20,780 nt of DNA from a virus. The stretch spans positions 1 through 20,780 of the IMG/VR virus record IMGVR_UViG_3300009128_000162. One strand, given 5' to 3'. Under the pieces are notes generated by a model. It was not told where the DNA came from. It saw nothing but the letters and a program-made list of their open reading frames with translations, and made no database searches. Below are positions 19,727 through 20,393 of this stretch, one piece after another; within the stretch, counting starts at the first letter, position 1; every line of letters starts with the position of its first letter. A program made the position numbers and the translations under genes.

Positions 19727-19734
19727 TATTTATA
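19727..19734 (-). promoter_or_regulatory. T4-type late promoter box of the capsid cassette
   Basis: Exact TATAAATA on the minus strand, between the tRNA gene and the first cassette gene, 29 bases upstream of the ATG at 19697. Closer to the ATG a TATAAT (19710-19705) also appears but has no matching -35 box. Confidence 0.72.
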
Positions 19735-19748
19735 ATAATTTAAGAATA

Positions 19749-19824
19749 TGGTGCCGAAGGCCGGACTCGAACTGGCGACCTACTGATTACAAATCAGTTG
19801 CACTACCAACTGTGCTACTTCGGC
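19749..19824 (-). tRNA. tRNA-Thr (anticodon UGU)
   Basis: The 76-base minus-strand sequence folds into a full cloverleaf. The acceptor stem pairs GCCGAAG with CTTCGGC; the anticodon stem ACTGA/TCAGT holds the loop TTTGTAA with anticodon TGT, reading ACA codons; the T arm has GTTCGAG in its loop. Discriminator A and the 3' CCA (19751-19749) are encoded. The ACA codon is A/U-rich, as expected for a tRNA supporting an AT-rich phage. It lies after the hairpin array, possibly on the transcript from the promoter at 20365-20393. Confidence 0.95.
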
Positions 19825-19834
19825 ATAATTAGGT

Positions 19835-20011
19835 GAGCAGTTTTTGGCAGGAGACATGCTCGGGTCTGGGGGATGCGTCAAAAAAACATAACAAAAGGAG
19901 GCACGCATCCTCTATGAAAAAGGGAGTACTGTGTAGAGGTCGTTGATTGAGTCGAGAGTATTTACACAGTACTCGTGGTAGTTTTATTAGGGGAGGAAGT
20001 CTAAACTACCA
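19835..20011 (-). ncRNA. array of four hairpins with CUCC-containing loops
   Basis: No gene lies in 19825-20000. On the minus strand four inverted repeats follow each other: 20011-19976 (9-bp stem TGGTAGTTT), 19974-19924 (12-bp stem GAGTACTGTGTA), 19910-19871 (8-bp stem GGATGCGT) and 19861-19835 (5-bp stem GAGCA). The loops of the first, third and fourth contain CTTCCTCCCC, GCCTCCTTTT and GTCTCCTGCC; the second has GACCTC. These resemble the 3' end of 16S rRNA (CCUCCUUU). The first hairpin overlaps the metallopeptidase stop codon. The second is followed by CCTTTTTC and might terminate transcription. A noncoding or regulatory RNA is inferred, not shown. Confidence 0.55.
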
Positions 20012-20330
20012 AAAGACTTCTATATTTTTCTGCTAATACATTTTCTAAATCATATGCTTCAACTTCGTTAGCATCATATCCATCAGAATATTGTTTTACA
20101 TGAACCATTTCGTGACACAACGTAACAAGCATTTCATCATTATCTAAACTTTGCTCAATCTCAATTTCATATTCAATTTCGTCTTCTTCAGTAACAAGGT
20201 TATCATTATGACACCAACCTTTAACTCCTTCTTCCTCAAATAAGTCGTCTAGGTAGACATGAACATTAATCTCGTCACGAATCTTTAATTCTTCTTTACA
20301 AAACTCAACAACATTATCAATATTAATCAT
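20001..20330 (-). CDS. small HExxH metallopeptidase-like protein
   Basis: The protein of 109 residues contains LCHEMVHVKQY with H73, E74 and H77, the HExxH zinc motif, and a downstream NEVEAYDLE (88-96) giving a likely third ligand (E91). This resembles small phage and bacterial zinc proteases of the gluzincin/SprT type, though it is short and has no signal peptide. The N-terminal half (about 45-65) is very acidic. Start: I chose ATG at 20330; extending to a TTG at 20339 would add MRF and has no support. GAGG lies three bases before this ATG, closer than usual. A perfect promoter stands 35 bases upstream. It may cleave a host or phage protein early in infection. Confidence 0.78.
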   Translation of the reverse strand: MINIDNVVEFCKEELKIRDEINVHVYLDDLFEEEGVKGWCHNDNLVTEEDEIEYEIEIEQSLDNDEMLVTLCHEMVHVKQYSDGYDANEVEAYDLENVLAEKYRSLLVV

Positions 20331-20364
20331 AAACCTCAACTCAATTCACTCAACCAACACTTAT

Positions 20365-20393
20365 ATTATACTATACTTTTTACTAAATGTCAA
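20365..20393 (-). promoter_or_regulatory. perfect-consensus sigma70-type promoter
   Basis: On the minus strand TTGACA (20393-20388), a 17-base spacer and TATAAT (20370-20365). The expected +1 is near 20358, giving a leader of about 28 bases to the metallopeptidase ATG. It should be read by unmodified host RNA polymerase, which would give early expression of the metallopeptidase, hairpin array and tRNA. Confidence 0.82.

Follow-up and report, generated by a model that had tools for sequence, protein, structure and literature searches.

A stretch of about 186 bases on the minus strand of a marine, T4-like phage, running from 20020 to 19835 and consisting of two pseudoknots and two hairpins, is firmly shown by comparison with its relatives to be a conserved structured RNA, and would represent a new family with strong covariation. 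It is well supported that the loop of one hairpin, HP2, would target the leaders of early mRNAs. On balance, with a probability of roughly 0.52, we read the array as a trans-acting antisense RNA that would repress phage early mRNAs after release from an early operon, with pseudoknots capping its ends.

The structured RNA and its operon

The window, that is, the whole stretch of DNA analyzed, is a 20,780-base IMG/VR record from a T4-like phage with genes including RNR, ThyX, a 2OG oxygenase, DUF6267 and a cytidylyltransferase. By the DUF6267 protein, the nearest annotated phages are Methylophilales phages, cyanophages, pelagiphages and C48C1. The locus reads on the minus strand in the order promoter, metallopeptidase gene, array, tRNA-Thr and TATAAATA:

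20365..20393, minus strand: sigma70-type promoter of the metallopeptidase/array operon, TTGACA-17-TATAAT, 12 of 12 consensus matches
20349..20359, minus strand: GTTGGTTGAGT, a variant of the leader box at the operon transcript's 5′ end, able to pair with the HP2 loop with one G-U
20001..20330, minus strand: first gene of the operon, encoding a small metallopeptidase-like protein (HEMVH), weak PF20573 match below the curated cut-off
19977..20020, minus strand: PK1, H-type pseudoknot; S1 20020-20014/20002-19996, L1 20013-20011, S2 20010-20003/19984-19977
19924..19974, minus strand: HP2, 12-bp hairpin; arms 19974-19963/19935-19924, 27-nt loop 19962-19936
19942..19952, minus strand: HP2 loop motif ACTCAATCAAC, exact antisense of the leader box GTTGATTGAGT
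19871..19910, minus strand: HP3, hairpin GGATGCG/CGCATCC; loop 19903-19878 with conserved CTCCTTT(T)GTTATG and a T run
19835..19867, minus strand: PK4, H-type pseudoknot; S1 19867-19864/19855-19852, S2 19861-19857/19839-19835, loop ending in AAAC
19749..19824, minus strand: tRNA-Thr(TGT), found by ARAGORN and Rfam, 10 nt after PK4
19728..19735, minus strand: TATAAATA, resembling a T4-type late promoter, ahead of the next gene; read by eye, position approximate

The array lies directly 3′ of the metallopeptidase gene in every array-bearing relative, and a near-identical promoter lies 5′ of that gene in all of them. The only family match of the ORF, a weak one, is to the DUF6782 metallopeptidases, and in the window its stop codon falls inside PK1. 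The tRNA-Thr is present in the window and in L001 and absent from most relatives; the L011 group has a tRNA-Met upstream, and the other array loci have no tRNA. TATAAATA also occurs 3′ of the array in the aligned relatives, and this putative late promoter would separate the array from the downstream late unit. A search of the array 3′ end for an intrinsic terminator with a U tail found none, the only terminator-like match being inside the tRNA. The array is predicted to be transcribed on the minus strand, from 20020 to 19835. In L001, a nearly identical relative (2480-2520, compared with 20040-20010 of the window), an insertion with a -10-like GGCATAATATAAG sits just 5′ of PK1 and the metallopeptidase C-terminus is altered; this GGCATAATATAAG is possibly a separate promoter for the array.

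The initial annotation had placed four consecutive inverted repeats, with stems of 9, 12, 8 and 5 bp, in the gap between the metallopeptidase ORF (20330-20001) and the tRNA-Thr (19824-19749). They are there on the minus strand, with stem lengths about as claimed. The middle two are hairpins as described, but the outer two are H-type pseudoknots, both stems of which covary in both cases. A pairing of 19996-20002 with 20014-20020, taken at that time to compete with the first hairpin, does exist but competes with nothing, being stem 1 of PK1. The 200-nt strand folds at -46.2 kcal/mol vs. -28.8 ± 3.3 kcal/mol for shuffled sequences (z = -5.2; 0/200 as stable).

All four domains are kept in ten distinct homologs. 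In a MAFFT alignment of these ten arrays, scored on the six-stem structure, 88.4% of cells are paired, vs. 37-43% when the partners are slid. Compensating stem changes in related phages, which the initial annotation had named as a check on its RNA, are present, with both-sided changes in 20 of the 43 pairs. The covariation is 0.278 vs. 0.151, and neither this value nor the 20 pairs was reached by any of 500 shuffles, although the shuffles overstate the significance somewhat because the alignment and model were built from related sequences; the slid control keeps the relatedness. At the DNA level the array shows 76-89% conservation, vs. about 50% identity for the adjoining metallopeptidase protein. 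Stems were also compared after segmentation by hand, which removes local misalignment but uses segments chosen to pair. By this comparison both-sided changes affect 7/7 pairs of PK1 S1 (GAAGTCT/AGACTTC) and 5/8 of PK1 S2 (GGTAGTTT/AAACTACC), as well as 9/13 pairs of HP2; on the MAFFT alignment the HP2 figure is 8/12, and PK1 has fewer such changes with its stems still covarying. The first loop of PK1 is U-rich. The stems of PK4 (S1 AGAC/GTCT, S2 GAGCA/TGCTC) covary in close relatives, and the arms of HP3 are GGTTGT/ACAACC in L045/L046, where the loop core CTCCTTTGTTA is unchanged. By eye, extra pseudoknot-like units are stacked 5′ of PK1 in L013 (1263-1355), L010 (1195-1262) and L020 (2173-2230); in some of these units loop 1 contains a small hairpin. 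The L013 units include a second PK1-like knot upstream of PK1.

Relatives were collected with the DUF6267 protein as bait (41 loci, with the array in many) and with pattern scans, which added more; the pattern matches L049 and L050 were rejected as coding sequence. A 429-aa protein used as bait recovered only a near-identical contig and C48C1, and a metallopeptidase profile scan gave no further array lineage. The covariance-model search proposed in the initial annotation was carried out with a model, R1, which matches the array only in the window's lineage (E about 1e−37 or better, on a short calibration). G025 is matched over the PK4 part only, and no array was detected by R1 in C48C1 or in the box-bearing fragments G003, G004, L303, L308 and L333. 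At gathering and relaxed thresholds, Rfam 15 returned the tRNA alone in the window and no family for the array.

Complementarity of the HP2 loop to early-mRNA leaders, and of HP2 and HP3 to Shine-Dalgarno sequences

Both pseudoknots were absent from the initial annotation, as was the strongest signal of the locus, an invariant HP2 loop complementary to the leaders of early transcripts. The HP2 loop in the window is AAUACUCUCGACUCAAUCAACGACCUC, and within it the RNA ACUCAAUCAAC is the exact reverse complement, over 11 nt, of GTTGATTGAGT. The loop keeps ACTC...ACTCAATCAAC in all distinct arrays except L004 (ACTCAATCA), while the HP2 stem varies. In the relatives, the box GTTGATTGAGT lies 6-7 nt after the -10 element of sigma70-type promoters, which would place it at about +1 to +11 of the transcript.

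On longer contigs of the relatives, GTTGATTGAG(T) follows good -10/-35 pairs 5′ of cobT-like, cobS-like, HD-type and small early ORFs, and a reversed-pattern control gave 0 matches. By reading of their sequences rather than by family search, the genes behind the box were assigned as CobT-like peptidases, CobS-like ATPases, HD-type hydrolases and small ORFs. Among the matches listed from viral contigs, a scan that takes in chance matches, the box stands 6-7 nt after TATAAT in 18/24 cases with a good -35 and in 13/76 without one. The marine phage contigs L308 (3238, 3716, 7473), L303, L333, L255, L184 and L186 likewise have the 5′-terminal leader GTTGATTGAGT behind sigma70-type promoters. This common leader may possibly be a tag of early transcripts.

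Against 82 non-redundant leaders, ACTCAATCAAC scores 12 in a single strong peak, with at most 4 elsewhere in the RNA; 60 shuffled RNAs scored 4.3 on average and 9 at most. For most pairs, predicted HP2-leader duplexes have energies of -17 to -23 kcal/mol vs. about -10 kcal/mol for shuffles, and the window's own leader, GTTGGTTGAGT, gives -22.8 kcal/mol vs. about -13.5 kcal/mol. The cobS and cobT leaders compared, like most metallopeptidase leaders, have energies far below those of shuffles; L010, L035 and L045 do not. In most lineages HP2 is predicted to pair with the leader of its own operon. The metallopeptidase leader of L017, TTGATTGAGT, is an exact 10-nt complement of the HP2 loop. The metallopeptidase leaders of L045/L046 have no convincing pairing with HP2, and those of L010 and L035 are weak in this respect. 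In several duplexes, the upstream ACTCC/ACTCT of the HP2 loop pairs with the Shine-Dalgarno (SD) region in the correct antiparallel order. The HP2 loop contains what is expected of a phage antisense RNA, a conserved unpaired segment complementary to the translation-initiation regions of phage mRNAs.

In favor of antisense targeting, the array and the boxes occur on one contig in G001, G002, G010 and G014, and in 150 of the 156 kb of the complete relative C48C1 neither the array nor an exact box was found, the best promoter-proximal near-match being TTTGATTGAG. Several observations count against it, among them the poorly pairing metallopeptidase leaders of L045/L046, L010 and L035 and the marginal pairing of HP3. 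Contigs with perfect boxes in G003 and G004, which are fragments, gave no array. No covariation of loop and box was seen, loop and leader being conserved instead. The change of CAAC to CATGG in the L004 loop is not fully followed by its leaders.

The CCUCC or CUCC that the initial annotation read in the loops occurs in three of the four; HP2 lacks CUCC, and only the CUCCUUU of HP3 is invariant in the relatives. No other domain of the array conserves such a stretch: four relatives (L010, L013, L020 and L004) have lost the one in the PK1 loop, CCUCC, and most relatives lack the loop segment of PK4 that holds its CUCC. This leaves the idea of a shared CCUCC loop as organizing principle without support. 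HP3 keeps CTCCTTT(T)GTTA while its stem varies, and ACUCC occurs in the HP2 loop of several homologs. SD sequences, AAAGGAGU for example, are matched by the HP3 sequence ACUCCUUU and by the ACUCC segment of HP2; as had been suggested, binding to ribosome-binding sites is likely to be part of the action. HP3 was rejected as an anti-leader element, its complementarity being at the SD level only, and its pairing with leaders is marginally better than that of shuffles. Complementarity between the HP2 and HP3 loops was checked by eye and no convincing kissing interaction was found.

Pseudoknots of the PK4 type outside the array

The 3′ pseudoknot of the array is, by its pattern, to be placed in a widespread, undescribed phage motif. 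The motif, N3-C C UGAGCA U G-N3 nn AAAC UGCUC(A), forms a small H-type pseudoknot and occurs at more than 200 phage and bacterial loci (L059-L178, L379-L471, L055-L058 and L478). The phages have unrelated hosts, and in them as in the bacterial genomes it sits immediately downstream of a stop codon and ahead of a gene or tRNA, with up to three copies per stretch. Among the matches listed from viral contigs, at least 139 are distinct, a few of them from loci already collected; stem 1, which was not part of the search pattern, has at least 3 pairs in 132/139, and 131/139 lie outside ORFs by a simple ORF caller. By the same caller, the listed matches lie a median of 21 nt beyond the preceding stop codon, with a lower quartile of 9 nt, and often 16-40 nt ahead of the next start. 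Contigs of bacterial and archaeal genomes have the motif in 93 stretches, and stem 1 has at least 3 pairs in 73 of the 95 matches. A tRNA starts within 60 nt downstream in 8 of the 227 matches listed and ends within 60 nt upstream in none, with about 0.4 expected.

The motif is found in crAss-like phages, in roseophages, where it lies between the genes for class II RNR and glutaredoxin, and in Arthrobacter phage Amigo, where it separates the SSB gene from a tRNA-Gly. We found no Rfam family for it, and a literature search for motif sequences listed unrelated papers with chance matches. In the crAss-like phage cr7_1 (L058, 1590-1820), a tRNA-like sequence apparently split by a long insert is followed by two PK4-type pseudoknots and then by the DNA primase gene. 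A sub-threshold match to a type III hammerhead-like sequence (30 bits, E 0.008) lies at L392 2285-2336 (Butyrivibrio), about 1.3 kb from a PK4-type pseudoknot.

Proposed mechanism, alternatives and known systems

The array would be transcribed from the early (sigma70-type) metallopeptidase operon and then released by processing. In the window's lineage, RNase P acting at the adjoining tRNA-Thr would set the array 3′ end, 10 nt after PK4. PK1 and PK4 would cap the ends and shield them from nucleases; nuclease-resistant ends are suggested because there are pseudoknots at both ends and no terminator. The exposed HP2 loop would pair with the box GTTGATTGAGT that a set of early mRNAs carries at the 5′ end, while its ACUCC/ACUCU segment and the HP3 loop would pair with their SD sequences. 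Occlusion of leader and SD would block ribosome loading, and therefore the early genes, including the RNA's own operon by feedback, would be shut down as infection proceeds. The sequences themselves show the structure, its conservation, the layout of the operon and the complementarity between loop and leaders on shared contigs. From these we infer that the array represses rather than stabilizes, that it is set free as an RNA of its own and pairs with its targets inside the cell, and that the knots protect it from nucleases. Stabilization by masking of the mRNA 5′ end is a possible alternative outcome of the identical pairing. More tentatively, and at somewhat short of even odds, a single dedicated structured RNA could act as the early-to-late switch, reading a common 5′ tag on early mRNAs as the RNA counterpart of RegA, with a 3′ cap drawn from a widespread, undescribed class of pseudoknots that lie between cistrons and would mark the 3′ ends of mRNAs near genes and tRNAs.

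A different account, which we consider rather unlikely, is that the array is a cis-acting 3′ UTR that makes the metallopeptidase mRNA more stable at its 3′ end and shields it from the tRNA or the late unit downstream, its loops being kept for protein or tertiary contacts and the leader match being a contact with its own 5′ end. The constant position behind the metallopeptidase gene, beside a tRNA in some lineages and without an intrinsic terminator, speaks for it, as do the PK4 modules found elsewhere after stop codons and before genes or tRNAs and the pairing of HP2 with the operon's own leader in most lineages. Left unexplained are the invariance of two long loops and the better match of HP2 to the perfect boxes of cobS type than to its own leader; moreover, L045/L046 keep the HP2 loop though their own leader is unpaired. 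The box could instead be a promoter element acting on DNA or on initial transcription, matched by HP2 through coincidence or shared ancestry, with another role for the RNA. Boxes on contigs with no detected array and the lack of visible loop/box covariation would fit, but by our own estimate the chance that 11 nt are exactly antisense to a single-stranded loop which is itself invariant is about 1 in 10,000 to 100,000, and none of 60 shuffled RNAs reached the observed leader score; we give this reading very little credence.

Two further readings start from HP3. A decoy directed at the ribosome, in which anti-SD loops sequester SD sequences at large or imitate the 3′ end of 16S rRNA, draws on the CUCCUUU of HP3 in all homologs and the ACUCC of HP2 in several. 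It appears improbable, as relatives do not conserve the CCUCC of PK1 or the CUCC of PK4, the energies of HP3 with leaders are marginal and the strongest complementarity is to a box other than the SD. The mimicry of 16S rRNA, named as one possibility in the initial annotation, is not supported, since the anti-SD stretches of PK1 and PK4 vary or are absent. The HP3 loop (19903-19878) also contains UUGUUAUGU, the core of the RegA SELEX consensus aaAAUUGUUAUGUAA of phage T4 (PMC3014915). The array might be a RegA sponge or a RegA-controlled RNA, with the HP3 loop UUUGUUAUGUUU bound by the phage RegA, which is encoded by 8 of the 9 relatives tested. We hold this to be a slim chance, as L035/L045/L046 have UUGUUAAAUGUUU and HP2 is left unexplained.

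If the antisense reading is true, a single RNA addresses an entire set of early genes via a short common 5′ tag, a simple regulatory design of which we found no report for lytic T4-like phages in the literature searched. The array RNA is of value by itself as a structured family. An explanation is needed for the PK4 module, which occurs between genes both in bacterial genomes and in phages whose hosts are very different bacteria; it may be a general device to end or protect messages without a terminator.

Cuckoo/CcsR RNAs have repeated stem-loops with CCUCC-type loops. Membership in this alphaproteobacterial group, raised in the initial annotation, is not borne out: repeated CCUCC loops are absent across the homologs and the architecture differs. 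No DUF1127 gene was found beside the array, the neighboring ORF being the weak DUF6782 match. Like the CcsR RNAs of the CIN1 locus (PMC10253847), the array has several stem-loops behind a small protein gene in one transcript, its processing being only inferred; unlike them, it is phage-encoded, has pseudoknots, and has neither a DUF1127/CcaF1 gene nor a series of homologous sRNAs with conserved CCUCC loops. The intrinsic terminator with a U tail that marks an Hfq-dependent sRNA was not found at the array 3′ end. Type III antitoxin RNAs (ToxI, CptI) resemble the array in their small H-type pseudoknot modules, and L010, L013 and L020 have extra knots upstream, but the units of the array are not identical repeats. 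This class was rejected, no ToxN/CptN/TenpN-type toxin gene being recognized among the flanking ORFs (metallopeptidase, 2OG oxygenase-like, a family-less protein and DUF6267).

The gene 32 mRNA of T4/T2 also has an H-type pseudoknot in a T4-type phage mRNA, located in the 5′ leader, where it nucleates gp32 binding (PMC3014915). The knots of the array instead flank a multi-hairpin RNA, and those of the PK4 type follow stop codons in many unrelated phages. In its proposed effect the array resembles the RegA protein of T4, which shuts down early T4-type mRNAs in general at the ribosome-binding site (PMC3014915), but it is an RNA and would recognize a fixed leader box by base pairing, in phages that also have RegA. 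Closest in proposed mode are the antisense or base-pairing RNAs of phages, namely lambda OOP, P22 sar, VP882 VpdS and lambda PreS (reviewed in PMC12197685), of which OOP and sar act on phage mRNAs. Like them, the array is a phage RNA with proposed pairing to mRNA near the translation start. Unlike them, it is capped by pseudoknots, without an intrinsic terminator and apparently derived from a protein-coding operon, and it would address a leader common to many early mRNAs of a lytic T4-like phage.
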